Position numbers and translations under genes: made by a program
NCBI GenBank assembly: GCA_017941035.1
Contig: JAGAXG010000030.1
Span: 1-62,409 of the forward strand
Source of the DNA: a bacterium
Lineage (GTDB): Bacteria > Cyanobacteriota > Vampirovibrionia > Gastranaerophilales > Gastranaerophilaceae
DNA: 62,409 nucleotides
Reading direction: 5' to 3'
In this document: piece after piece, positions 25,540 through 39,070 of the stretch
How the letters are laid out: every line of letters starts with the position of its first letter
How positions within the stretch are numbered: the stretch's first letter is position 1
The notes under the pieces: model-generated
What the model was told of the DNA's origin: nothing
What the model saw: only the letters and a program-made list of their open reading frames with translations
Databases searched by the model: none

Positions 25540-25902
25540 ATGGGATATATTCATTGCTGTGGAGGGCTTCGAAAAACTAAAAGTTTTGTATTGGCTCCTT
25601 CAGAGAACTTTATTATGTGCGAAATTGATTATCTCGGGAAATGTCCAATTTGCGGGCATACTGTAGTTCAACTTACAAGAATTGATGAGAAAAATGAAAT
25701 TACGTCCATAAGATACACTAATAAACAAGCTCGAAAATTTTTTGAGAAATTAAAACCAAAAATATTATACGAAAGAAAATACTATGATTACTCAAAAATA
25801 TATAAAGGGACTTTTTATCTTTATTATAACGAGTTCGGTATAAAAAAAAGATGCTACTCAAATATTTCTAACCTGAAAATTGGATTAAAAACTAATTTAT
25901 AA
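25540..25902 (+). CDS. Zinc-ribbon protein, probably phage-related
   Basis: A 120-residue basic protein. Cysteines at the N-terminus (HCCGG) and a CPICGH knuckle near residue 38 suggest a treble-clef or zinc-ribbon fold, as seen in small phage regulators. The second half is Lys/Tyr-rich (KFFEKLKPKILYERKYYDYSKIYKG) and could bind nucleic acid. GGAAGG precedes the ATG. It opens the phage-derived block and has its own terminator at 25943, so it is transcribed apart from the capsid operon; a role as regulator of the block is possible but unproven. Confidence 0.55.
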   Translation: MGYIHCCGGLRKTKSFVLAPSENFIMCEIDYLGKCPICGHTVVQLTRIDEKNEITSIRYTNKQARKFFEKLKPKILYERKYYDYSKIYKGTFYLYYNEFGIKKRCYSNISNLKIGLKTNL

Positions 25903-25942
25903 ACCCCTATCATCATACATTCATTCCATTTACTCTATGTCT

Positions 25943-25969
25943 ATAAGGGGCTATGCCCCTTTTTATTTT
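25943..25969 (+). terminator. Terminator after zinc-ribbon gene
   Basis: Stem AAGGGG / CCCCTT with loop CTATG, followed by TTTATTTT. Confidence 0.75.
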
Positions 25970-26044
25970 GAATGGAAATATTATTAAACGAAATAAATTT
26001 TATTGATTTAATATACAATCAACAAATTAGAATCAGAGGGAAGC

Positions 26045-26269
26045 ATGAAGTTATCACCTAAAGAACAAGATGTGTTAACTCTCATTGCATGCGGATTTAC
26101 AGATAAAGAAATTGGAATTAAGTTAAAAATTTCAAAAGGTACGGTACATACACACGTAGAAAATATATTTGATAAATTACGTGCAAAAACAAGAGGACAC
26201 GCGGTAAGTTTATATATCAATCTAAATCCAAAATGGAAAAGAGAAGAAAGGTATTTAAAAACTGTATGA
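26045..26269 (+). CDS. LuxR/GerE-type HTH regulator, stand-alone
   Basis: A 74-residue protein consisting of a GerE-type HTH: LSPKEQDVLTLIACGFTDKEIGIKLKISKGTVHTHVENIFDKLRAKTRGHAV. All family landmarks are present (L-x-x-x-E-x-x-V/L at the start, G-x-x-x-K-E-I, the T-V-x-x-H-x-x-x-I recognition helix). It has no receiver or ligand domain. GAGGG precedes the ATG. Its stop overlaps the amidase start (ATGA), so it heads the capsid/packaging operon and may switch it on. A phage terminase-type HTH is an alternative, but the GerE signature is clear. Confidence 0.82.
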   Translation: MKLSPKEQDVLTLIACGFTDKEIGIKLKISKGTVHTHVENIFDKLRAKTRGHAVSLYINLNPKWKREERYLKTV

Positions 26270-26772
26270 AAAGAATAATTATACATTGGACCGCAGGAAG
26301 GTATTATCCAACATTATATGAAAAGCAATTCTATCACTATTTAATTGATAAGGAAGGAAAAATTTACAACGGGATATACAATCCTGAGGCTAATTTAGAC
26401 TGTAATGACGGTAAATATGCTGCACACACTGGCGGAGGGAATACAGGATCTATTGGAATTGCAATGTGTGCAATGTCAGGATTTAAATCAGCGTCAGAAT
26501 GCGGATCTTATCCTATAACTCGCATACAATTTGAATCTTGCATGGAAGTTTGTGCAAGACTTTGCAAAAAATACGATCTTAAAATTAATCCTTCGACAGT
26601 TATGACACATTATGAATTTGGGCAGCTTCACCCCAAAACCACAAGCTACGGTAAAATAGATATTATATACCTGCCTCCGTTTCCTTGGGTATCAAAAAAT
26701 GACATCGGGAGTTTTATTCGTTCAAAAATTCGTTGGTACAAAGCAAGAAAGGATCAATTATATGGAAATTAA
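26266..26772 (+). CDS. N-acetylmuramoyl-L-alanine amidase (phage endolysin type)
   Basis: A 168-residue amidase_2/PGRP-like domain that cleaves the bond between muramic acid and the stem peptide. Zinc ligands by position: H7 (IIIHWTAG), H115 (VMTHYEFG) and D132 (GKID); NTGSIGIAMC is the central strand. There is no signal peptide, so it would depend on a holin for export, as usual for phage endolysins. The ATG overlaps the stop of the HTH gene; an earlier in-frame ATG at 26233 is less likely. It overlaps the next gene by 11 bases. Confidence 0.85.
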   Translation: MKRIIIHWTAGRYYPTLYEKQFYHYLIDKEGKIYNGIYNPEANLDCNDGKYAAHTGGGNTGSIGIAMCAMSGFKSASECGSYPITRIQFESCMEVCARLCKKYDLKINPSTVMTHYEFGQLHPKTTSYGKIDIIYLPPFPWVSKNDIGSFIRSKIRWYKARKDQLYGN

Positions 26773-28279
26773 TTATTTTGATTTGTCCGGAGGTATTAAT
26801 CAATCTTCGACAAAAACTGAACTTGGTGTAAATACAAAGCCTGTTTATTGGTCAGATGCTCAAAATATAGAAATCTTAAACAACAAGGGAATTATCAAAC
26901 AAAAAGGAAATTCTATTTTTGCACAAATACCTGAATCTGAAGAAATTACAGGTATGCATGAAATGGAATTTGATAATATATTTAATTTAATTGTCACAAC
27001 TATTTCAGGTAAAATTTATATATATTCTCCTTTAACAGGGTTATTTACTTTAGTTGACAAAACCTTGCACGGGATTAAAGTAAAATTTGTACCTTTTTTA
27101 AGAGGGATATTAGTAGCCAGTGAATCAGATCCTATGTTTTATATAAAGAATCAGGATTATGAAGTTGTTAATTGTAATTTAAAAGATACAAATAATGTTG
27201 ATATTATTCCCAATAATATTGCAGTATACAAAGGAAGAGTGTTCTGTTCTTCCGGGGCGACATTATATTATTCAGCTCTTGGAACTTATGATGATTTTGG
27301 AACCGAAAATGATGCCGGATATATAAATGAATTTCACACTGACACTTCAGATATAACAGGAATCCATGCATACAAAGATTATTTAGCAATTTATAAAAAA
27401 GAACGTATATATTTACTTGCAGGCACTACACCAACAGATTTCGCAGTTTATCCTTTTGCTGATAAAGGGACAAAAGCGAAAAATTCTATTTTAAATGTAG
27501 ATAACAAACAATATTTTTTAAGCAATGGCATTTATGCTCTTGAACAAGTAGGAGAATTAAATCAAATAAGACTAGGATCAGAAATTTCTCTAAACATTAA
27601 AAACACTATTGAAAATTTAGATAATTCAAGAATTTCGGAAACATTTGCTCTCCACTATCACAATAAACATCAAATGTGGTTCTTTTTCCCTATAAAAAAT
27701 AACTTGCGATATAATATAATTTGGATAAATGATTATTTAAACAAAGCTTGGTATAAAAGAGTTCTTCCACAAAAAATTACTTGTGCATGTTCCTACAATT
27801 CATACATTTTAACTGCAGATGAAGAAGGTAATATATATAGAGAAGATTTTGGAGAAAGTTTCAACGGTTCACCTATAAATTTTTATTGGAAATCTTCTTT
27901 TTTCTCTCTAAATAATGTCCATCACAGAAAAATTATAGATGAATTTTATTTTATTCTTGACGGAGAATACAACAATAATTTTAATTTTTCAGTATACAAA
28001 GATTACGATGTAAACAATCCTGAAGATAATGAACTAATATATTCAAGTCACTATAATCAACTCGTTTGGGCTGATGACGAAGAAGAAGCTAATAATAATA
28101 ATTGCTGGGCATTAGAAAATGCTATTGCTCCGGTATGGGCAATAAATGCAGATACTATTGAAAAAGCAGAAATTTGCGGCAGCTGTTTTTCTGTTCAATT
28201 GTGCATTGACGGAAAAAATTCAAATAATGATGCCGCAATTATAGGATTACAATTTAGAGAAATTTATAATGACGATTAA
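26762..28279 (+). CDS. Packaged-DNA stabilisation / tail hub protein, P22 gp10-like
   Basis: A 505-residue beta-rich protein. The start (F-DLSGGINQSST, YWSDAQNIEILNNKGIIKQKGN) and the many short strands with Gly/Tyr/Trp turns are like the gp10-type stabilisation proteins of short-tailed phages, which form the hub below the portal and hold packaged DNA. This is fold-level similarity judged by eye. I took the ATG at 26762 with AAAGGA; the frame is open to 26699, inside the amidase gene. The major capsid gene follows after a 65-nt gap. Confidence 0.6.
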   Translation: MEINYFDLSGGINQSSTKTELGVNTKPVYWSDAQNIEILNNKGIIKQKGNSIFAQIPESEEITGMHEMEFDNIFNLIVTTISGKIYIYSPLTGLFTLVDKTLHGIKVKFVPFLRGILVASESDPMFYIKNQDYEVVNCNLKDTNNVDIIPNNIAVYKGRVFCSSGATLYYSALGTYDDFGTENDAGYINEFHTDTSDITGIHAYKDYLAIYKKERIYLLAGTTPTDFAVYPFADKGTKAKNSILNVDNKQYFLSNGIYALEQVGELNQIRLGSEISLNIKNTIENLDNSRISETFALHYHNKHQMWFFFPIKNNLRYNIIWINDYLNKAWYKRVLPQKITCACSYNSYILTADEEGNIYREDFGESFNGSPINFYWKSSFFSLNNVHHRKIIDEFYFILDGEYNNNFNFSVYKDYDVNNPEDNELIYSSHYNQLVWADDEEEANNNNCWALENAIAPVWAINADTIEKAEICGSCFSVQLCIDGKNSNNDAAIIGLQFREIYNDD

Positions 28280-28344
28280 TAATTTATAAAATCCCCGCTC
28301 ATATATGTATGTAGTTATTTTTGAAAAATGAAAGGAAAATGAAA

Positions 28345-29202
28345 ATGACAGATTTTTCAACAACTTACTCTGCTTTTATTCCGCAAATTTGGAGTCAAAA
28401 GCTTAACACAATGCTTGAAAAAAATTGTGTAATGTTACAATGCGTAAACAGAAATTGGGAAGGTGAAATAAAACAGCAGGGCGATACTGTTAAAATCATC
28501 ACTCCTGCAGATGTTTCTGTTTCTACTTTAACAACTGATAATATTACATATTCTTCTCTTACTCCAACATCCATGGATTTAGAAATTGATCAAAAGAAAT
28601 TTTTTGCATTTAAAATTGATGATGTCGCGAAAGCTCAATCAAATGTTGATATTATGGAAGCACATTTAAAAAATGCAAAGAAAGCTATTGAAGAAGTTCA
28701 AGACAGCTATTTATTAGGCTTACATACAGATGTAACTTCAGCAAATACAGTAGGCACAGATGCTTCTCCAATTTCTCTTGATAAGACAACAATTTATTCT
28801 AATTTTGTAAAACTAGCTAAAGCATTAAAAAATTCAAATGCCGTATATTCAGGTGTTAAACCATGGGTAGTTATTAATCCGGAAATTGAATCTTATTTAC
28901 TGCAAAGTTCTGAATTTATCAGCGCACATAATGTTGCAGATACAACTTTAAGAGAAGGTTCTATCGGAAGAATAGCCGGAATGGATGTACTTGTTAGTAC
29001 AAATCTTACAGCAGTAAATAGTAAATATTATGTTTTAGCGGGTACAAATGATGCTATAACATTCGCTTCTCAACTTGCCAAAATTGAAAGCTTAAGGGAT
29101 AAAGACAGTTTCTCAGATTTGGTTAGAGGATTGTATTTGTACGGTGCTAAAACAGTTCAACCAAAAGCATTGGCAAAAATGATTGTTTCTGTTCCAGCTT
29201 AG
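28345..29202 (+). CDS. Major capsid protein (HK97-fold, P22-coat-like)
   Basis: A 285-residue protein. N-terminal FIPQIWSQKLNTMLEKNCVMLQCVNRNWEGEI, then QGDTVKIITPADVSV and EIDQKKFFAFKIDDV (the E-loop/P-domain pattern of P22-type coat proteins), VIMEAHLKNAKKAIEEVQD helix, WVVINPEIESYLL and GMDVLVSTNL in the A-domain. These blocks are typical of capsid proteins of short- and long-tailed phages. AAAGGA lies 8 nt before the ATG at 28345. A hairpin follows the stop, which may set capsid mRNA ends. Confidence 0.85.
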   Translation: MTDFSTTYSAFIPQIWSQKLNTMLEKNCVMLQCVNRNWEGEIKQQGDTVKIITPADVSVSTLTTDNITYSSLTPTSMDLEIDQKKFFAFKIDDVAKAQSNVDIMEAHLKNAKKAIEEVQDSYLLGLHTDVTSANTVGTDASPISLDKTTIYSNFVKLAKALKNSNAVYSGVKPWVVINPEIESYLLQSSEFISAHNVADTTLREGSIGRIAGMDVLVSTNLTAVNSKYYVLAGTNDAITFASQLAKIESLRDKDSFSDLVRGLYLYGAKTVQPKALAKMIVSVPA

Positions 29203-29210
29203 TTGAACTT

Positions 29211-29254
29211 TAAGTGTACTCTTTTTTGTTTGTTTTGGGAAAGAGTACACTTTA
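29211..29254 (+). terminator. Long hairpin after capsid gene
   Basis: Arms TAAGTGTACTCTTT and AAAGAGTACACTTTA with a 15-nt loop. It is followed by CCCCTT and not by a T-run, so it may be a processing or stability signal and not a true terminator. Confidence 0.5.
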
Positions 29255-29279
29255 CCCCTTAATCAAAGGAGAAAAAATA

Positions 29280-29528
29280 ATGTTTGAAAATTTAAAAAAA
29301 GTAATAAAAAAATTGGCAATGAACGCCGTGCTTGTCGCAGAATCAGAACTTGGTTCAAACAAAGGGCAAGAAAAAAAACAACTGGCTATTAACTATATAG
29401 TTGAGCATTTACCTGTATCAGAATTAATAAAATACTTTATTTCGTTAATTTTATCAAAATTTATAGATGATGCAATTGAAATAGCAGTAGAGAGCATGAA
29501 TTCATTGCCTGAAAAAATAGGAGAATAA
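29280..29528 (+). CDS. Holin-like small protein (LLH-type C-terminal region)
   Basis: An 82-residue helical protein. The middle AVLVAESELGSNKGQEKKQLAINYIVEHLP and the end KFIDDAIEIAVESMNSL follow the pattern of the C-terminal part of LLH-type phage holins (A-x-x-x-E-x-x-x-G-x-G-x-x-K-K...V...L...). One hydrophobic stretch (LIKYFISLILSKFI) could enter the membrane. The usual N-terminal transmembrane helix is missing, so a holin role is not certain. GGAG precedes the ATG at 29280; upstream in-frame ATGs lie in the hairpin. Confidence 0.5.
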   Translation: MFENLKKVIKKLAMNAVLVAESELGSNKGQEKKQLAINYIVEHLPVSELIKYFISLILSKFIDDAIEIAVESMNSLPEKIGE

Positions 29529-29534
29529 AAAGAT

Positions 29535-30173
29535 ATGCAAAATCAGATATTTAATGGTATTTCATCATCTGCCGTGAAGCCACAAACAAATTATACAGAT
29601 GTTATTCAAATACTGGAAGAGGCAATTCAGGCTGACATGCAAAAAGTACAAATGCTTGTACAACAAGGAACAATTACACCACAACAAGGATCTTATCTTA
29701 TTAACATGCTGGGTAATAAAGCGCAAGAAATTTCCATGTACAAGCAAACTGCACCAATGCGTGAAAAGCAAAATTTCTCTTCAGAACCGGTTACTATAGA
29801 AGAAAAACCGATTGATATTTTCCAAAAAGAAAACCCTGATTTTTTTGGAGATGAAAAACGTTCTGAGCTTTTGAATTACATCAGAAATTTGGATTTGGAT
29901 AAAGATGAAATTTCCAAAATAGCTCAACTCGCACAAAATTTAGAAAATTCTGCGGTTGAAAATTATTTAAAACAATCTGCCCACGACAAATCAATGAATG
30001 ACGAGAACTCAGTTGCTAAGAGCAAATTGACATCATATGCTCAAAATGCTTCTTCAGACAAAAATTTAGAAAGGATTTTCACTCGTGAGGATATCGGCAA
30101 AATGAGCGGAGATGAATTTCTCAGAAACGAAAAATTGATAATGGAACAGGTAAAACAAGGCCTTATCAAGTAG
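29535..30173 (+). CDS. Capsid scaffolding-like protein
   Basis: A 212-residue polar, Gln/Glu/Lys-rich, helical protein with likely coiled coils. The C-terminus FTREDIGKMSGDEFLRNEKLIMEQVKQGLIK is a pattern I associate with scaffolding proteins of phages with HK97-type capsids, whose basic C-terminal helix-turn-helix contacts the coat. Position next to the capsid gene supports this. There is no protease motif. It starts 6 nt after the holin-like gene and ends before a strong hairpin. Confidence 0.6.
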   Translation: MQNQIFNGISSSAVKPQTNYTDVIQILEEAIQADMQKVQMLVQQGTITPQQGSYLINMLGNKAQEISMYKQTAPMREKQNFSSEPVTIEEKPIDIFQKENPDFFGDEKRSELLNYIRNLDLDKDEISKIAQLAQNLENSAVENYLKQSAHDKSMNDENSVAKSKLTSYAQNASSDKNLERIFTREDIGKMSGDEFLRNEKLIMEQVKQGLIK

Positions 30174-30190
30174 TTTTTGACAAATTTCAA

Positions 30191-30234
30191 AAAAAGTTCG
30201 GACAGGAATTATAAAAATCCCTGTTCGAACTTTT
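30191..30234 (+). terminator. Hairpin terminator after scaffold gene
   Basis: Stem AAAGTTCGgACAGG / CCTGTtCGAACTTT (one G-T pair), 12-nt loop, followed by TTTT C. It would allow more capsid/scaffold mRNA than downstream packaging mRNA. Confidence 0.65.
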
Positions 30235-30256
30235 CAAAAATTATAAGGAGATATTA

Positions 30257-30895
30257 ATGAACTTTTTAGAAATTATAAATAAATGTTTACTCGAACTAAA
30301 TTATAAACCGGTTAATACATTCGGTGAATTAATAAAAAATGACCATAAAAAAATTAAAACTATTTTAAATATTATTAATAAAGAAATTTGTAATATTGAA
30401 TTGTGGGATTTTTTACTTCGCAGGACTAATTTAACAATTCCGGCTAATACTCAAGAAATCGAAAATCCAATAAATGGAAGGATTCTATATCTTTTCATTG
30501 ACGGTGAAAAATATAAATTTCAGCAAGATATTGAAGAATTTTTAACAGGACAAGCCTCAGGTAAAAAATATTCAATGTTGAATAATAAATTGTTATTTCC
30601 TAAATTCAAACAAATAAAGACTGCCGATATAGTTTATTATACAAAAAATTGCGTAATAAATTCTAATAATGAAGAGCAAGAAGAATTTATATCCGAAGAT
30701 GATGCATCTCTTATTCCGATGCCATTTGCAGAGCAATTACTTGTATATGGGACATGCTTAAGATTAAAAGCGAATCCTTCTTATATAAGATTTAGCTATT
30801 GGATGAGCATGTACAAAGATGCTCTTTTGAACCTAAAATCAAAAACATCCATAGATGCAAATAATTCGCCTATTGTAAAGTTACACAGGATTTAG
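30257..30895 (+). CDS. Head-tail adaptor, P22 gp4-like
   Basis: A 212-residue protein. Helical start FLEIINKCLLELNYKPVNTFGEL, then IINKEICNIELWDFLLRRTNLTIPANTQEI, a short beta domain (RILYLFIDGEKYKF) and a C-terminal helix block PFAEQLLVYGTCLRLKANPSYIRFSYWMSMYKDALLNL. Head-tail adaptors of short-tailed phages (P22 gp4, T7 gp11 type) have this layout. AAGGAG precedes the ATG. The gene stands alone between two hairpins. Confidence 0.6.
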   Translation: MNFLEIINKCLLELNYKPVNTFGELIKNDHKKIKTILNIINKEICNIELWDFLLRRTNLTIPANTQEIENPINGRILYLFIDGEKYKFQQDIEEFLTGQASGKKYSMLNNKLLFPKFKQIKTADIVYYTKNCVINSNNEEQEEFISEDDASLIPMPFAEQLLVYGTCLRLKANPSYIRFSYWMSMYKDALLNLKSKTSIDANNSPIVKLHRI

Positions 30896-31021
30896 ACAAA
30901 AAAAACAGGAAGTCGTTTTCATTCCCCCCTGTTAAGATTTACACTAGCCGAAATATAAATAGCATGTTCATTATACAAACTATTTAGAAAAAACACAAAT
31001 AATTATAAGAAATGTAACAAG

Positions 31022-31462
31022 ATGAAACAATTAACAAATCAACAAAAAAAATTTGTCCTTGAATATATAAAATCACTTGATGGTGAAAAAGCTGTAAAAT
31101 CAGCAGGCTACAAAGTTTCAAATCCGAAAAATTTCTCTATCGAGCTATTATCTAAAGATTTAATTGTTAATGAAATAAAAAATCAATTGAAGCATGAAAT
31201 TGACACTTTAAATGTACCAAGAGGTTATGTAATTCAAAAACTTTTACAAATCGCTGAATTTTCACTTGAGCAGGAAGATATTTTGGATAAAGAAGGAAAT
31301 TATACAGGGAAGAAAAAATTAAGAGACTCTTCTGCCGGATTAAAAGCATTAGAAAGCCTTTGCAAATATCTGGGCTTTACGTCATCTTCAAATGATATTA
31401 ATAATGAATATAAAGAGGCAAAAATTATTACAATATCAAACTTAGATGATAACAAAATTTAA
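31022..31462 (+). CDS. Terminase small subunit
   Basis: A 146-residue protein. LTNQQKKFVLEYIKSLDGEKAVKSAGYK is the N-terminal HTH of TerS proteins (terminase_2 type), which recognises the packaging site; the next helices SIELLSKDLIVNEIKNQLKHEI and VPRGYVIQKLLQIAEFSL build the oligomer ring. The final third resembles the C-terminal part that contacts the large subunit. No SD is clear before the ATG. It lies 6.3 kb away from the large subunit gene, separated by the portal and an insert. Confidence 0.82.
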   Translation: MKQLTNQQKKFVLEYIKSLDGEKAVKSAGYKVSNPKNFSIELLSKDLIVNEIKNQLKHEIDTLNVPRGYVIQKLLQIAEFSLEQEDILDKEGNYTGKKKLRDSSAGLKALESLCKYLGFTSSSNDINNEYKEAKIITISNLDDNKI

Positions 31463-31480
31463 TTAACGAAAGGTTTAAAA

Positions 31481-31834
31481 ATGAAAGAAGATAAAAATAA
31501 ACAAATTGAACAAATTTTACTTAATGATAAAAATTATGAAAACTTTATTAATTCAAAAACAGAAAAAGAATTTGAAGATATTTTAAATTCGAAAACAGAA
31601 AAAGAAACTGTTATCACAAATATAAAAGAAGTTCCAAGAGAACTTTTACTCTCGAAACATGCTGTTTATATGGTTATAAACAAACAAAGCAAAACAAAAT
31701 CTTATATAAACGGGATTCAAGCAGACGGTTACCTTGGAAATCAAAGTATAACAAGAGAAAAGCTTTTATCTTATTTGAGTGATTCTTTTGTAAGCGGGAA
31801 TAACTTTATCAAATTCTATCAAATTAAATTTTAA
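31481..31834 (+). CDS. Hypothetical protein of the packaging block
   Basis: A 117-residue protein that I do not recognise. It starts with a charged helical region that contains a short internal duplication (NSKTEKEFEDILNSKTEKET, about 25-44), followed by a small alpha/beta region (AVYMVINKQSKTKSYINGIQADGYLG). GAAAGG precedes the ATG. It sits 18 nt after the small terminase gene and 5 nt before the GNAT gene, so it belongs to the same transcript. No function can be assigned. Confidence 0.5.
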   Translation: MKEDKNKQIEQILLNDKNYENFINSKTEKEFEDILNSKTEKETVITNIKEVPRELLLSKHAVYMVINKQSKTKSYINGIQADGYLGNQSITREKLLSYLSDSFVSGNNFIKFYQIKF

Positions 31835-31839
31835 TAACC

Positions 31840-32373
31840 ATGTGCAAATTTATTCAAATTAAGTGTAATCTTTTAAACAATACTTTTACCAATTTGCGCT
31901 ATATACCTAAAATTCAAAAATGTTTCTGCAAATATTCCAAGTATCTTGTCGATGATTACTCCAAATCAGGTTCTTACCCCTTTCTCCCTTCGGCACAAAG
32001 ATATTTGTGGGCTATTCTGGATTATTATAATAATTTTATGGGTTTTGTTTATTTAGACAATTTTGTCGGAAATGGAATTCAAAATTATAGTGCAGAATTG
32101 ACAACGTGTTTTGAAAAAAAGGCTTGGGGCAATTTTACTCGATATAGCGCAAAACTTTTTTTAAAAAAAGTTTTTGATGATTTTGGATTATACAAAATTA
32201 GAGCATTAATTTATCCAGATAATTTCCGAGTTGCTTCGCTTTTAAAATCTTCCGGATTTAAATACGAAACTACAATACCTAAAGAAACTTTTAGGAACGG
32301 GAAACCACAGGATATAGATTTGTACGGAATTTACAGGACATACTATTACAAAGACGAGGTGAAAAATGATTAA
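31840..32373 (+). CDS. GNAT-like acetyltransferase inside the packaging block
   Basis: A 177-residue protein with a GNAT pattern: MGFVYLDNFVGN, YSAELTTCFEKKAWGNFTRYSAKLFLKKVFDDFGLYKIRALIYPDN and RVASLLKSSGFKYETTI. This is the RimJ/RimL-like order of strands 4-7, with the acetyl-CoA loop at KKAWGNF (weakly conserved). The N-terminal 60 residues are Cys-rich and unlike typical GNATs. It might modify a structural or host protein. It overlaps the portal gene by 8 bases, which is unusual for a cargo gene and suggests that it belongs to the module. Confidence 0.65.
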   Translation: MCKFIQIKCNLLNNTFTNLRYIPKIQKCFCKYSKYLVDDYSKSGSYPFLPSAQRYLWAILDYYNNFMGFVYLDNFVGNGIQNYSAELTTCFEKKAWGNFTRYSAKLFLKKVFDDFGLYKIRALIYPDNFRVASLLKSSGFKYETTIPKETFRNGKPQDIDLYGIYRTYYYKDEVKND

Positions 32374-34018
32374 TACATTAAAAAACGAAGGTTTCACGCC
32401 TGATTATTATAATGAGCAGGCACTAACACACAGTATTGTAGAAAAATATGATTATTTTGATAATCAAAGAAATCAACAACGCTCAGATAACAGATTAATA
32501 GCACACGCTATTTACAATTCTGATATTCCTGTTGTTAATGACTGGAATTGTAAAATTCAAATGCCAGAGATATATGAGCTCTCACAAACATTGAAATCCC
32601 ACATTATTCAAAATTTATATTCACATCCTGACGGAATGTTTGACGTCTCAGGAAGAGATTTAAAATCTCAAAAAACAGCAAATACCCAAAAGGCAATGCT
32701 TGTAAATGTTTTTGAAAATATGAAAATAGAAAATGAAATGGAAAAAATTGTTGACTCAGTTGTTGAAACTGGAGAAGTTACACTTTTTATCGGGTGGGAA
32801 ACAAAGACTCGTAAAGTCAGACGTGCTTTGAGTCTACAAGAACAAATTAAATTGGGAGTCAAAGATACTTTTATAATTGAGGATAAAATTGTTTATGATA
32901 ACGCTAAAGTAAAATTTATAGGATATGAAGATTTTGTTTTCGATACAACTTGCGCAGATAATTGGGATTCATGCCCTAAAATTTACAGAACATACAAAAC
33001 ACTTGACGAGATTAAAGCAAATTACGCGAATAATATGTTAAATGATGAGAAACTGGAAATTTTGAAAGGAGTGGTGGCAAATAAAAAAGGAAGGAAAGAA
33101 GGGAAATATTCAATCCCACAAGTGGAAGTTTTAGAATATTGGGGAGATATTGAACTCCCGTCAGGTGAAATTTTAAAAAATCAGCTTATATCTGTTGCCG
33201 GAAGAAGTGTTCTTATAAGATTTGAAGAAAATCCTTTTATAATAAATCCGTTTATTCACGCAAATATTATTGAAAGTCCATCAACAGGACGCGGGATTTC
33301 TCCTTTACGCGTCGCATTGATATTAAATAATATATCCTCAACAATTTTAAATAAACAACTTGATGCATTAGCTCTAATGATGAATCCTCCATATCTAGCG
33401 CCAAAAGGATGTTTTAGAGGAACACAAGATGTCAGCCCTGGGAAAATTATAGAATACGATGCATCACTAATGACTTCTGTACCGACCCCATTATCATTTG
33501 ACAAAGCAATGACAGGCTGGGATTTTTTAAATTATTTCAAAACAACAACAGAAAGTGCTACGGGAATATTTAAAAATATGGCAGGGAATATTCAATCCCA
33601 AGACAGAACAGCCACAGAAATTAATTATTCTGTAAACGGGCAAGAAGCAAGATTAAATATGATATTAGAATCTATAAATCGAAAAATTATAGTCCCAATG
33701 GTTGAAAAAACAGCTGAATTGATCTCTAACTTCAAAATCGGCACTGAAAGTATTCTCGTAAACAATCACGGAGAAACAGAGTTTTTAGATATAGATGATA
33801 ACATCAGAAATTCAAATTATGTATACCGCTATGGAGACAGAAAAGCGACTTTTGAAAAGAAATCAAGATTTAAAGAATTGTTTGATGTTATAAGCGCATT
33901 TGTACAAATCCCTACGGTTAATGAAAAAATAAATTGGCTCGAATGCTTCAAGTTTGCATTGGAGCAGTATGGAGTTGAAAACGCAAATAATTTTTTAACA
34001 GAAGGTAAAGAAAAATAA
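32366..34018 (+). CDS. Portal protein
   Basis: A 550-residue portal, the dodecameric channel through which DNA is packaged. Characteristic parts: SDIPVVNDWNCKIQMPEIYELSQTLKSHI (N-terminal wing), VETGEVTLFIGWET, KVKFIGYEDFVFDTTC, GRGISPLRVALILNNISSTILNKQLD (stem/crown helix) and TTTESATGIFKNMAGNIQSQDRTATEI (clip/tunnel loop), then long helices. Length and layout agree with P22-type portals. The large terminase, normally adjacent, lies 3.8 kb downstream beyond an insert. A small palindrome CGAATATTGTAATATTCG follows the stop. Confidence 0.8.
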   Translation: MINTLKNEGFTPDYYNEQALTHSIVEKYDYFDNQRNQQRSDNRLIAHAIYNSDIPVVNDWNCKIQMPEIYELSQTLKSHIIQNLYSHPDGMFDVSGRDLKSQKTANTQKAMLVNVFENMKIENEMEKIVDSVVETGEVTLFIGWETKTRKVRRALSLQEQIKLGVKDTFIIEDKIVYDNAKVKFIGYEDFVFDTTCADNWDSCPKIYRTYKTLDEIKANYANNMLNDEKLEILKGVVANKKGRKEGKYSIPQVEVLEYWGDIELPSGEILKNQLISVAGRSVLIRFEENPFIINPFIHANIIESPSTGRGISPLRVALILNNISSTILNKQLDALALMMNPPYLAPKGCFRGTQDVSPGKIIEYDASLMTSVPTPLSFDKAMTGWDFLNYFKTTTESATGIFKNMAGNIQSQDRTATEINYSVNGQEARLNMILESINRKIIVPMVEKTAELISNFKIGTESILVNNHGETEFLDIDDNIRNSNYVYRYGDRKATFEKKSRFKELFDVISAFVQIPTVNEKINWLECFKFALEQYGVENANNFLTEGKEK

Positions 34019-34143
34019 CGAATATTGTAATATTCGAGTGGGGGGGGCGGCAGGGAATAACTTTATACAAAATATTTTGCACAATTATAAAAAAGGGAAA
34101 AATAAATAATTTCTTAAATAAAAATAGGCCAAATACAAAAGAA

Positions 34144-34650
34144 ATGGCGAATATATTTTTAGCAAAACCACAAAATATACCGTTAAGTAAAGAATACAGT
34201 TACATTCCTAAGGGTAATGCTAATATATTAAATTACAAATATAACTTATTTGGAACAAATAAAGAAATCCCTCAAAACTGGGAAGGTATTGTATTTAATC
34301 AATACAGTTCATTGTCTAAAAATATTTCTAATTCTATCGAAATGCAAAATGAAATCAAAAGACAATTCAACATTATGCGTGTTGATACACTTAATGACAA
34401 ATTAGAAGTTGATTTCTCAAAGGATTCAAATTTACATTTGTCAATAGGTCATGCAACAGTACTTGAACCATATATTGATTCTGATGGATATTTCCATGGC
34501 ATTCTTTTTGATAAATATGATTTTGATTGGTTATATAAAATGGCATATAAAAAACCATTTACATACATTATAAATAATTATTTTGCACTTATTCAGTTAT
34601 TAAACGGTCATAACTATTATATTCTTGCACCAATAATATTTAAATGGTAA
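34144..34650 (+). CDS. Hypothetical protein in the insert
   Basis: A 168-residue protein that I do not recognise. No signal peptide or clear transmembrane segment. The middle is polar; the C-terminal 65 residues contain GHATVLEPYIDSDGYFHGILFDKYDFDWLY and an aromatic-rich end. A papain-like or toxin-type fold (Gly-His-Ala near strands) is conceivable but not supported by a second catalytic motif. The ATG has only a weak upstream purine stretch. First gene of the non-phage insert; it may be co-transcribed with the membrane protein that follows after 10 nt. Confidence 0.5.
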   Translation: MANIFLAKPQNIPLSKEYSYIPKGNANILNYKYNLFGTNKEIPQNWEGIVFNQYSSLSKNISNSIEMQNEIKRQFNIMRVDTLNDKLEVDFSKDSNLHLSIGHATVLEPYIDSDGYFHGILFDKYDFDWLYKMAYKKPFTYIINNYFALIQLLNGHNYYILAPIIFKW

Positions 34651-34660
34651 TATTACCCAT

Positions 34661-35185
34661 ATGATAGATTTTTACAAAATGAATAAAGACATAATATACA
34701 TAATAGGCATACATATTCTTATGCCTATTGCGTACTGTTTTATTTTTATATCTACACTAATAGTACCCCTTTTATTATTCTTAAATGAATTCTCGCAAGG
34801 TATAGAAAATCCTTTAGGATTAAATATTAAAACTTTTGTGTTTATATTCTTTTGTATATTTATTATGCTTCTTTTTATATTACGAATACTTATACTCCCT
34901 TTTTTGTATGGATATTTTGAGAAAAAAACTTGTAATATACGTTTGAAAAATTTTATTCATAATTTAAAGCACAATTATCTATATAGATTACTTATACTAA
35001 TTATTGTTGAAATCCCATTTTTGCTATTAGTATTGAGAGCAAATACTGTTCATTATCCGCCTTATTTGGAGCGTATTGAGCTGCATGCATTATTAACTTG
35101 TACATGTGATTTATTAGGCTGCTATCTTGCATTATTTTTATGGTGGGATATACAAAAATTAATTAAAAAAATCAAGCCTATATAA
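34661..35185 (+). CDS. Four-helix integral membrane protein in the insert
   Basis: A 174-residue protein with hydrophobic helices at about 10-35, 52-78, 105-127 and 140-165 and basic ends (LIKKIKPI). The topology (two helical pairs) is similar to the protein at 35278, and both end in a short Lys/Ile tail, so they may be distant paralogues. No transport or enzyme signature is visible. It follows the 168-residue gene after 10 nt. Confidence 0.55.
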   Translation: MIDFYKMNKDIIYIIGIHILMPIAYCFIFISTLIVPLLLFLNEFSQGIENPLGLNIKTFVFIFFCIFIMLLFILRILILPFLYGYFEKKTCNIRLKNFIHNLKHNYLYRLLILIIVEIPFLLLVLRANTVHYPPYLERIELHALLTCTCDLLGCYLALFLWWDIQKLIKKIKPI

Positions 35186-35277
35186 TTAATTGGGGGTATT
35201 CAATGCAAGAAAAAGGTTTACTTGAAAATCAATTTAATATATACATAATTTTTGAAAAATTGTGGTAATATATTTAT

Positions 35278-35742
35278 ATGCAAAATGACGATTTTAAAGG
35301 ATTTTTTAAATATTTATTTGCAATAGTGGTAGAAATGATGCTGCCACTATTGTGGTTTGCATTGTTTATCATATGTTTAGGGCTTGGGGCAAATGGTTTA
35401 GATATCCCAAATTTTATTGCGATTGTTGCTGTTATTTTGTTGCTTATAACACCTATCATATATTTTTTATTACCAATTATTGTAACAATATTGGCAATAA
35501 AAAATCACTGGAGCAGTTATTTAGACAGGTTTTTTAATAAATTCAAATTGCCTACGATTATATTAGGTATTGTTATGTTTATAATAATAATATATGAAAA
35601 ATATCATATAATGATAGATTTTAGTTACAGTCGCTTTTGGGTATGGTTTTATTATGCCATAGTTCCTCCATATTGCTTAATTTATCTTGTAATTTTAGTG
35701 CATAATATAATAAAAAAAATTAAGGCAATAAATAATGAATAA
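35278..35742 (+). CDS. Second multi-helix membrane protein in the insert
   Basis: A 154-residue protein with four strongly hydrophobic segments (about 10-35, 42-70, 90-108 and 118-142) and a basic C-terminus (IIKKIKAINNE). Function is unknown. A TATATTTATATG-like stretch directly before the ATG, and no good SD, suggest its own weak promoter. Two bases after its stop the first copy of a 100-bp direct repeat begins, so the end of this gene marks the left edge of the repeat-flanked unit. Confidence 0.55.
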   Translation: MQNDDFKGFFKYLFAIVVEMMLPLLWFALFIICLGLGANGLDIPNFIAIVAVILLLITPIIYFLLPIIVTILAIKNHWSSYLDRFFNKFKLPTIILGIVMFIIIIYEKYHIMIDFSYSRFWVWFYYAIVPPYCLIYLVILVHNIIKKIKAINNE

Positions 35743-35743
35743 A

Positions 35744-35843
35744 GCGTGTAGGTTGGGTGAAACCCAACAATAACTTCTTTAGTGCACAAAATTGATATCA
35801 TATAATATATTAAATCGTGCATTATAATGTACGATACTTACTA
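35744..35843 (+). repeat. 100-bp direct repeat, copy 1
   Basis: About 94% identical to 37316-37415. It holds a perfect 7-bp stem (GTTGGGT-GAA-ACCCAAC), a spacer with TATAAT, and a second stem (CGTGCAT-TATA-ATGTACG). The two copies have the same orientation and bracket the M48 protease gene. GTTGGGTGAAACCCAAC-type repeats are known as dispersed palindromes in several bacterial groups including Cyanobacteria (memory, not searched). Confidence 0.9.
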
Positions 35844-35940
35844 ACCTTTATTCTATTGTCCGTTTTAAGGACTGCACTTCAAAATATAAAAATTTTACTG
35901 TGAATGAGATAAAATTAATAATTTTGCCTACCAAATAATA

Positions 35941-37236
35941 TTATAAATTTACATTATCATACTGTTCTTTGATATATTTATTTTTATTATCAAGACGATA
36001 TGCCTTATTTATGTAATCTTTTGATTTTTGGAGATATGATTTATTTTTAGTTAATACATATATTGCATCTGCATTATAAGATGCATACAAATATGCAAAA
36101 GGGTTAGAACCGTTCAAATCAAAATATTTGTTAAAATATTCATCGGATTTTCTGAATTCTCTATTTATATAATATTTATAAGCAAATCTTAAATACAGAT
36201 CTTCCATTGTTTCAGGTCTATAATAAGACTCTGAAGGAGAATTGCCTAAAGAATTTATTACAATAGACTTTCGATCCGAAGATAATTTCACCGGAAGAAC
36301 TGCTGAGTTATATATATTAAATTCTCCAATATCCTTCCACTGATCTTCTATAAAATATTTTCTGTTATCATAAAAATTTTCCAAACGATGCCTTGCATTG
36401 GGGTGATCAACTCTACGCTCTACATACTGTGGTAAAGTATTTAAAAACGAGATGACTTCAACTCCTTTATCAAGATCATAACCTGCTTTGGCTGCAAGTT
36501 TTGCTCCTTCTATATCCGCAGCATATTCCATATTTTTTGAATCAATCAAATATTTTCTTTTTGTTGCAGCATAAGTTAAAGAGGCAATAGAATTCCCTGC
36601 AAGAGCAAGTTGTCTGTACTTTTCCAGATTATTCAGTGTTGTAGTACTTCTTTGCTGATGCCCTAAAAGTGCATGACCCATTTCATGACCGATTAACATT
36701 GCCAAAGCATCATCATTATTAGAAAATGTATCATAAGCTGATGTTGCTATTGCTATATAATTCATCCCTGTAGAATATGCATTAAAATTTTCCGTATCTC
36801 TATATATACCAATTCGCCAATTCAAGTAATCCAATTTATTTGATCTTATTATTCGTTCTGCAATGCGGTATATTTTGTAATAATCTTCCCCTTTTGCCTG
36901 TGCATCATAATTATCTATGGTTCTCTTACATAAAGATTTATGTATTTGTGAATAGACAACTTCGTCCTCAGTAATTTTCTTCTTTAAATCTAAAGAATTA
37001 ATCTTTTCATAGCTATCCAGTTTTAATAATTTAGGGTCCTTTATTTCAAAATTAATATTAACAGGTAATTCTTTGTTAACTTTATTACTTATATTTTCAT
37101 TCTCAAAGTATTTATTTGTAGTTCCATATTTCTGAGCATGTTTCATCTCTTTTTCTTGCAATTTTGCATAATCACGAGCAAAAACAGCATTTACAGATAA
37201 AATTCCAACAAATAATAAAATCCAAAAATTCTTCAT
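35941..37236 (-). CDS. M48 family metalloprotease with C-terminal TPR-like region, exported
   Basis: A 431-residue BepA/YfgC-like protease. Signal peptide 1-20 (ends VFA), zinc motif HEMGH at 184-188 (H184, E185, H188), third ligand in EYAADIEGA some 50 residues later, and a helical repeat region in the last 120 residues (ADAIYVLTKNKSYLQKSKDYINKAYRLD) like TPR. Such enzymes handle misassembled outer-membrane proteins. It is the only gene of the region on the minus strand and lies exactly between the two 100-bp repeats. The ATG at 37234-37236 was taken because the signal peptide starts there. Confidence 0.87.
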   Translation of the reverse strand: MKNFWILLFVGILSVNAVFARDYAKLQEKEMKHAQKYGTTNKYFENENISNKVNKELPVNINFEIKDPKLLKLDSYEKINSLDLKKKITEDEVVYSQIHKSLCKRTIDNYDAQAKGEDYYKIYRIAERIIRSNKLDYLNWRIGIYRDTENFNAYSTGMNYIAIATSAYDTFSNNDDALAMLIGHEMGHALLGHQQRSTTTLNNLEKYRQLALAGNSIASLTYAATKRKYLIDSKNMEYAADIEGAKLAAKAGYDLDKGVEVISFLNTLPQYVERRVDHPNARHRLENFYDNRKYFIEDQWKDIGEFNIYNSAVLPVKLSSDRKSIVINSLGNSPSESYYRPETMEDLYLRFAYKYYINREFRKSDEYFNKYFDLNGSNPFAYLYASYNADAIYVLTKNKSYLQKSKDYINKAYRLDNKNKYIKEQYDNVNL

Positions 37237-37315
37237 AACAATACCACAACTTTCCAAACTTAGTATAGCACATTGCATACTTTTTTACAAATTTTTATAC
37301 CCAAATGGGGGGGTA

Positions 37316-37415
37316 GCGTATAGGTTGGGTGAAACCCAACAATAACTTCTTTAGTACACAAAATTGATATCATATAATATTTTAAATCGTGCATAACAAT
37401 GCACGATACTTACTA
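37316..37415 (+). repeat. 100-bp direct repeat, copy 2
   Basis: Second copy of the repeat at 35744-35843, same direction. Differences are single bases, two of them in the second stem (CGTGCAT-AACA-ATGCACG), where the change C/G is matched on the other arm, so the stem itself seems to be kept. Confidence 0.9.
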
Positions 37416-37440
37416 GCAAAAAATATTTTTTAGGGGGGTT

Positions 37441-37590
37441 ATGCTAGTAGGCAGAAGTTTAAATAATAATTACAATCCACATTTCAATGCTAAATTCGAA
37501 GTAAAAGGCTGCACTGATTCAATACTCAAAGGATTTACAAAAGATTTTAAAAAAGCTATACTAAAATTTATTAACGGTTTAAAGAAGTAA
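37441..37590 (+). CDS. Small 49-residue protein in the insert
   Basis: A 50-codon ORF with AGGGGGG 2 nt before the ATG. The product is basic, with NPHFNAKFEVKGCTDSILKG and a helical end KDFKKAILKFINGLKK. No family is recognised. The very short spacing makes the SD doubtful, but the G-run is unusual in this A/T-rich DNA. It begins 25 nt after the second repeat copy. Confidence 0.4.
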   Translation: MLVGRSLNNNYNPHFNAKFEVKGCTDSILKGFTKDFKKAILKFINGLKK

Positions 37591-37699
37591 ATATTTTTGT
37601 ATAATAAATAAATTAGAATTGTATGGCACGTGTATACGCACTTTATAATGTTTAATAATAATTTTGGGGCGAAGAATTGCACCCTACATAACTTTACCT

Positions 37700-37735
37700 G
37701 TCGTGTCGGGCAAAATTGTCCGACACGACTTTCTT
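37700..37735 (+). terminator. Strong hairpin upstream of large terminase
   Basis: Perfect 10-bp stem GTCGTGTCGG / CCGACACGAC with a 10-nt loop and TTTCTT behind it. It would separate transcripts of the insert from the large terminase gene, whose ATG is at 37781. Confidence 0.7.
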
Positions 37736-37780
37736 ATTGCGAATTTATTGAGATTATTTTTATATAACGAGGTATTTATT

Positions 37781-39070
37781 ATGAAATATAATTTATTAGA
37801 TGCTCAACGACAATTTTTGGAAATTCCGCACGAATATTCGCTTGACGTTGCAGTCTATCAAGGGGGGTACGGTTCCGGCAAAACTTTTGCCGGTTCCTTA
37901 CTCGGGATTTTACTTGCTTTCAAATTCCCTGGGATTCGAGGGCTTGTAGGAGCTCAAACTTATACTCTTGTTAGAGATACAACTCTACAGTCATACTTTG
38001 AACATCTTGATTCAATGAAGCTTACTGAAGGTATTGATTACAAGTGGTATTCTTCTGAACAAAAATTGTTATTTCACAACGGTTCAGAAATTCTTTTCAG
38101 ACATTTCGATGAACCAAACAAATTAAAATCTTTAAATTTGGGTTTTGTTGAGATTGAAGAAATGTCAGATATTCCATATGACACTTTTAAAATGCTTCTC
38201 GCACGAATGAGGCAAAAAATTAATCCTAAATGGATAAATTTTAAATATAGAATTTTTGGGCATACTAATCCGGAAATTAATAAGGGCTGGATTTATAAAA
38301 CTTTTTTCGAATCTCCCGCCCCTAATTACCGAGTTATTTGTGCTCCAACAACACAAAATATTTATTTGCCGAAAGGATTTTGTGATGAACTAAAAAAACT
38401 TTATGATGAAAGTTATTACGAAACTTTTGTTATGGGCAAAACAGGAAACTATAATACAAACCTTGTAGTTAAAGATTTTTCAGATGAAAACGTTCGAGAA
38501 ATTCAATACAGAGATGATTTCGATATTCACATAAGTTGTGATTTTAACGTAGATCCGATGGCATGGGTTATAGCACACAAAACAGATGAAAAAGTTTTTT
38601 ACTTTGATGAACTTGTTTTGGAAAACACTACAACCTCAAAAACTTGTGATGAATTTTATAGAAGATACCCGAATCATAAAGGCAAAATTATAATAAATGG
38701 GGATGCCTCAGGAGATAATAGAAGCTGTACAAGTGAATACACCAACTACGTTATTATCAAAAGAAAAATGGAATCATTTGGTTATGAAACAGATATTAAA
38801 ATTAAAGCATTCAATCCACCCATAAAAAACAGAATAGCTTCTTTTAATGCAAAAGTACGAAATGCAAATAATGATATCGGATTGTATATTTCTCCAAAAT
38901 GTGAAAAGCTTTTATACAATATTTATAACTTAAAATATATAGAAGGATCTTCCAAAATTGACATACCAAGTTTCACTCAAATTAAGCAAAATAAAGAATT
39001 GAAATTTTTATCACATCCATTTGACGCCGCAAGTTATCTTGTAGATTTTTATTGGCCTATTGTTTTATAA
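37781..39070 (+). CDS. Terminase large subunit
   Basis: A 429-residue packaging motor. ATPase: Walker A GGYGSGKT (28-35), Walker B FVEIEE (123-128). RNase H-like nuclease: D255 in SCDFNVDP, D309 in INGDAS, D415 in HPFDAASY, so all three metal-binding acids are kept and the enzyme appears active. GAGG precedes the ATG at 37781; the frame is open 39 codons upstream, but that part contains the hairpin at 37700. It stands apart from the portal and the small subunit because of the 3.8-kb insert. Confidence 0.9.
   Translation: MKYNLLDAQRQFLEIPHEYSLDVAVYQGGYGSGKTFAGSLLGILLAFKFPGIRGLVGAQTYTLVRDTTLQSYFEHLDSMKLTEGIDYKWYSSEQKLLFHNGSEILFRHFDEPNKLKSLNLGFVEIEEMSDIPYDTFKMLLARMRQKINPKWINFKYRIFGHTNPEINKGWIYKTFFESPAPNYRVICAPTTQNIYLPKGFCDELKKLYDESYYETFVMGKTGNYNTNLVVKDFSDENVREIQYRDDFDIHISCDFNVDPMAWVIAHKTDEKVFYFDELVLENTTTSKTCDEFYRRYPNHKGKIIINGDASGDNRSCTSEYTNYVIIKRKMESFGYETDIKIKAFNPPIKNRIASFNAKVRNANNDIGLYISPKCEKLLYNIYNLKYIEGSSKIDIPSFTQIKQNKELKFLSHPFDAASYLVDFYWPIVL

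Follow-up and report, generated by a model that had tools for sequence, protein, structure and literature searches.

Direct repeats around an M48 peptidase gene

How did a single peptidase gene come to lie between two copies of a structured repeat inside a cluster of phage structural genes, and what kind of repeat is it? Both questions are raised by the window analysed here, a 62,409-nt stretch that makes up one contig of a 1.8-Mb, 48-contig draft genome. A repeat search of the region returned one direct-repeat pair, at positions 35743-35843 and 37315-37415 of the plus strand. The copies are 101 nt long, 94% identical and spaced by 1572 bp; a match of this length is not a product of chance. 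The gene between them encodes a Peptidase_M48 protein (PF01435, E 1.9e-14). The original prediction, direct repeats with two stems each bracketing an M48 protease gene, was thus borne out on both counts, as the same pair of hairpins forms in each copy (z = -2.25 for copy 1 and -4.93 for copy 2, folded as single-stranded DNA).

Copy 1 starts at the base following the stop codon of the open reading frame (ORF) at 35278-35742. Its first hairpin (35752-35768), a perfect 7-bp stem closed by a GAA loop, is directly preceded by the tetranucleotide GTAG (35748-35751), the two together forming the element at 35748-35768. In the corresponding element of copy 2 (37320-37340), the hairpin (37324-37340) is intact and the tag reads ATAG (37320-37323). 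The second hairpin has a 9-bp stem, with one G.T pair in copy 1 (35814-35835) and perfect in copy 2 (37386-37407). A search of Rfam gave no match above threshold, and a scan of the whole window for strict hairpins tagged by GTAG found one, with no excess over control tags.

The two copies differ at six positions (copy 1/copy 2): 35748/37320 (G/A), 35784/37356 (G/A), 35809/37381 (A/T), 35823/37395 (T/A), 35825/37397 (T/C) and 35830/37402 (T/C). Only the last of these falls in a stem. In the original prediction, a changed base on one arm of the second stem was matched on the other arm; this proved incorrect, since the partner of 35830/37402 is a G in both copies and the change merely turns a G.T pair into G-C. 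Being one-sided, it is silent on selection for structure, and conservation of the stem by covariation was discarded.

The repeat begins with a GTAG-tagged REP

Sequence comparisons support the identification of stem 1, contained in the first 26 bp of the unit, as a GTAG-tagged REP hairpin. Searched with up to one mismatch, the core GGTTGGGTGAAACCCAAC has 117 occurrences across 21 of the 46 genomes of the genus, against none for the reversed control; four to five copies are in the window's own genome. The 115 copies fetched define the consensus A/G-G-NNN-GTAG-GTTGGGT-GAA-ACCCAAC-A, in which the residues of the tag are conserved at 93% (G), 93% (T), 97% (A) and 98% (G). Forty-six of 112 copies lie within 60 nt after an ORF of the same strand.

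Association with RAYT transposase genes, which the original prediction had proposed to look for, was found in a congener: contig C46 of genome G008 carries a RAYT gene (PF01797) between two inverted copies of exactly this REP, with GTAG on the outside, which by its arrangement is the usual REPtron layout. Most other RAYT genes inspected in the genus are flanked, on one side or both, by REPs with a sequence of their own. Two RAYTs, sharing 48% and 55% identity with the G008 protein, are encoded in the window's own genome, both with other REPs: one is preceded by GTAGGTTGGGCATACCTGCCCAAC, while the other is bracketed by REPs of the GTCGGGTT...AACCCGAC type and broken by an in-frame TGA. A cognate RAYT is therefore missing from this genome today. 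In several RAYT genes elsewhere (L119, L229 and L227), or directly beside them, REP-like blocks are repeated in frame, VETPTYKYLNNDEKG in the case of L119; these look as if REPs had inserted into the transposase gene itself. In the window, two more palindromes precede terL at 37656-37729, an inverted GTAGGGTGCAAT-type REP-like sequence and GTCGTGTCGGGCAAAATTGTCCGACACGAC; sequences of the GTAGGGTGCAAT type are found on both sides of the RAYT gene of L231.

Like the GTAG-tagged REPs and REPtrons described previously (Nunvar et al. 2010, PMC2817692; Di Nocera et al. 2013, PMC3733652), the family has GTAG directly before a short perfect hairpin (in the window, in copy 1), is dispersed and extragenic, lies near the 3' ends of ORFs and brackets a RAYT gene. 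It differs in its low copy number, in the long shared tails of several kinds that its copies carry and in the fact that the host's own RAYTs are accompanied by other REPs. The group 3 REP of Stenotrophomonas (PMC8266576) is comparable in having a perfect stem (8 bp, versus 7 bp here), a 3-nt loop beginning with G and a GTAG tag; here, a CT dinucleotide near the REP is present in only part of the copies.

With its REP at one end, a spacer, a second hairpin and a length of about 100 bp, the unit also resembles REPINs (Bertels and Rainey 2011, PMC3116915). REPINs, rather than REPs, are the mobile unit, and clusters repeated in tandem together with their flanks have been described (PMC3116915); spacers of head-to-head REP dimers are conserved (PMC3733652). 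A REPIN, however, has two inverted REPs some 100 bp apart, whereas in this unit the second hairpin (ATCGTGCAT/ATGCACGAT) bears no relation to the REP and lacks an outer CTAC. The unit is therefore not a canonical REPIN.

A MITE with terminal inverted repeats was also considered and found unsupported, as the two ends, AGCGTG... and ...ACTTACTA, do not complement each other; the four borders of the two units show no duplicated flank indicative of a target site. An integron attC cassette (a 55-140-nt site starting with RYYYAAC and ending with GTTRRRY) was dismissed because the motifs stand as GTTGGGT-GAA-ACCCAAC, in the wrong order and only 3 nt apart. Of the "REP/MITE-type palindromes" originally suggested, the REP part holds for stem 1, on the strength of its tag, its genus-wide occurrence and its position around a RAYT gene in the congener, and the MITE part finds no support. 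Judged by these comparisons, the window repeat is a member of a known bacterial class, REP with RAYT, and would place this class in gut (non-photosynthetic) cyanobacteria; our literature search found no report of REPs from these organisms.

The suggestion that the repeats are dispersed likewise applies to the 26-bp REP head alone. A search of the window's own genome and of the genus found the other 75 bp, including stem 2, nowhere besides these two copies, and comparison of this tail with the sequences beside RAYT genes gave matches of chance length only. The full 101-bp unit was accordingly rejected as a dispersed element.

REP copies share homology on one side

To delimit the repeated unit in the family as a whole, each of the 6555 pairs among the 115 copies was aligned, starting at the REP and extending outward. 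The null extension score reached a maximum of 7 in 3000 trials, and a cut-off of 20 was used. Ninety-seven pairs share the 3' flank only, two the 5' flank only and two share both; they form 22 tail clusters as against two clusters confined to the 5' side, counts that include related genomes and are not fully independent. Tail scores range from 18 to 298. Homology continues for 25-300 bp past the hairpin and, on the other side, ends about 8 bp before it; the 5' extent in pairs that share only the 3' flank is mostly 3-9 nt, which is the REP consensus itself. On the evidence of these alignments, the repeated unit is headed by the REP as a fixed end and is open at the other. This one-sidedness among 115 copies provides a testable rule for the mobile unit.

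Tails differ among clusters. Several end in a further hairpin or in a terminator-like run of T residues, and most have no clear second REP of the same family; one tail family ends in TTCTCAAACCGACTGTTATTTTAC, the sequence that follows the RAYT gene of contig C7 in the window's own genome.

Among REP copies less than 6 kb apart, five of the 12 same-strand pairs share tails of 75-176 bp, as opposed to none of the eight pairs on opposite strands. Besides the window (75 bp), the five comprise G008:C76 (78 bp), G030:C12 (105 bp), G012:C44 (171 bp) and G008:C44 (176 bp). One gene lies between the copies in G008:C76 and in G008:C44, two in G030:C12 and about three in G012:C44. The window pair is thus one case of a recurring pattern in these sequences, with a tail that is private to it.

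An insertion between the portal and terL genes

The repeats sit inside a phage structural module (25.5-39.1 kb) with genes for an amidase, capsid, terS, portal and terL. By name, the relatives of TerL come from Candidatus Gastranaerophilales/Melainabacteria genomes of animal guts. The portal and terL genes are 40-136 bp apart in 15 of the 17 genomes of the genus with a comparable locus, versus 3763 bp in the window and 2826 and 3457 bp in two others. The whole stretch that contains the repeats is therefore an insert, and most relatives have neither insert nor repeat at this position.

The insert begins with a toxin-like fragment (34144-34650, plus strand) equal to the C-terminal residues 287-469 of a protein of 469 aa encoded after the portal gene in relatives; full-length homologues are found there in G016 and G012. 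The next gene (34661-35185, plus strand) encodes a small membrane protein which, by gene order, would be the immunity-like partner of the fragment. Beyond what is left of a second toxin-like 3' end (35187-35277) comes another small, immunity-like membrane protein (35278-35742, plus strand), whose homologues directly follow toxin-like genes in relatives, and then unit 1, the M48 gene and unit 2. The order of the genes, the small membrane partner and the exchangeable C-terminus are the grounds on which the labels toxin-like and immunity-like are inferred; none of the family models matched these proteins, and running PADLOC on the island proteins produced a single weak JetA match, to a relative. 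Structure prediction for the toxin-like fragment gave a mean pLDDT of 44 and was not used.

The gap between portal and terL (34018-37780 in the window; also L208, L214, L279 and L276) is an insertion site for such toxin/immunity-like modules, with 469-aa proteins beginning MQKQIHVNSYVKRDGTQVKEHFR, exchangeable C-termini and small membrane partners. Direct repeats are present in the inserts of L208 and L214 too (303 bp, 83%; 176 and 125 bp, 93%).

The cluster itself (25540-39070, including amidase, capsid, terS, portal and terL) occurs in 45 of the 46 genomes of the genus, judged by terL. Its order is constant, beside dxr and a histidine-kinase gene, in 16 of 17 loci; the 17th contig ends short of the flanks. 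In G016, G039 and G004 (L219-L221), terL is apart from the rest of the cluster, and in G016 the portal and toxin-like genes are on contig C22 and terL on C1. Six genes checked had no internal stops, dN/dS for terL, portal, capsid and terS (0.05-0.10) is like that of dxr and the kinase, and their distances correlate with those of these two flanking genes (r 0.42-0.87). The cluster looks vertically inherited and under purifying selection, and it resembles a gene transfer agent or another domesticated phage.

The M48 gene

The peptidase gene (35941-37278, minus strand) encodes a protein with a signal-peptide-like N-terminus; its true start, judged by eye, is likely at 37236 (MKNFWILL...). Homologues exist in 20 of the 46 genomes, one per species (the window's own and 19 others), the closest being 55-62% identical. 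None of the 19 other genomes has the gene next to terL. The six closest homologues have no such repeats and no GTAG hairpin nearby, and neither the M48 gene nor the REP was found on viral contigs. By these comparisons, M48 is an accessory gene private to this site among the genomes compared, and it is cargo, not part of the element. The idea of M48 as a mobile gene carrying the repeats, in the manner of a composite transposon or gene cassette, was abandoned in view of the bare flanks of its six closest homologues. The repeats give no indication of travelling with M48 or of having brought the gene to the site.

Origin of the repeat pair

The original prediction had allowed that a local duplication would be enough if only these two copies existed and always accompanied this gene. 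That applies to the whole 101-bp unit, though not to its REP head, and local duplication is therefore the leading reading. In the form we consider probable, a single REP-headed unit of about 100 bp, with its 75-bp tail ending in the second hairpin, was copied once beside itself in the same direction, either through the action of a RAYT on single-stranded DNA, beginning at the REP end, or by ordinary duplication. Such copying would leave the accessory M48 gene with a direct repeat on either side. Recombination of the RecA type between these repeats could then delete 1572 bp including M48 and leave one unit, so that gain or loss of the gene by recombination, as originally proposed, is plausible. 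No relative with one unit copy and no M48 was found among the genus genomes, one per species. Weak transcription termination is a possible role of stem 2, and copy 2, with its ATAG tag, may no longer be used by a RAYT.

With just two occurrences, 1.5 kb from each other, the unit shows no sign of transposing by itself, and a plain segmental duplication fits this observation equally well. In that account, replication slippage or unequal exchange duplicated, with no transposase, a 101-bp stretch that happened to begin at a REP; the common strand of the two copies, 1572 bp apart, and the direct orientation in all five near pairs with shared tails agree with it. However, the 5' limit of homology lies at the REP in nearly every pair of the genus, near or dispersed and in different genomes. 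A blind duplication would not pick the REP as its 5' limit, so we regard it as the less likely course. An artefact of assembly at a short repeat is conceivable in a metagenome draft of 48 contigs; yet the copies differ at six positions and have different unique sequence on all four sides. With the longest exact stretch common to both only 35 nt, a misjoin is unlikely, and we consider such an artefact highly improbable.

A further alternative concerns genes at REP edges. At one conserved locus unrelated to this one, G016, G004, G002 and G037 are 90-98% identical for at least 0.7-1.5 kb after the REP and have different genes before it; in G040, which has no REP there, the two conserved neighbours are about 60 bp apart. 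At two other loci, identity of 98-99% stops at -8/-9. A REP immediately follows the end of the window ORF at 35278 and of each of the two immunity-like genes of G013:C1, and REPs of the family occur within 3 kb of toxin-like genes at five loci, compared with 0.67 expected, an excess partly explained by the general position of REPs near ORF ends. From such cases, the REP 5' edge in this genus could be an active breakpoint for insertion, exchange or deletion of single genes, possibly through one-ended HUH action of a RAYT, with REP-headed units bordering one-gene slots (toxin, immunity or other accessory genes) of which M48 would be one. We think this unlikely; if correct, it would link REPs to accessory-gene turnover and bear on what RAYTs do.

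Applied to the window, the same idea would have M48 arriving as a REP-bordered unit beside a resident REP. The four genomes with different genes before the same REP and 90-98% identity over at least 1.4 kb after it speak for such insertions, as do the REP-less genome and the abrupt ends of identity and of ORFs just described. On the other hand, REPs adjoin gene ends anyway (46/112), and the genes before them may simply be variable. G037 retains the gene start ATGAAAATGCAAGT and lacks the remainder as far as the REP, a pattern that resembles, and also fits, a deletion to the REP edge. M48 is opposite in orientation to the REPs, unlike the other cases, and no recombinase or circular form was seen. 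We consider arrival of M48 by this route quite unlikely.

Many of the variable genes beside REPs (L345-L348, L304, L273 and others) encode proteins that start with MQVQRVQNNNYNTNFG or a similar sequence, a common N-terminal motif; the start of a short ORF at 37442-37591 in the window is related to it.
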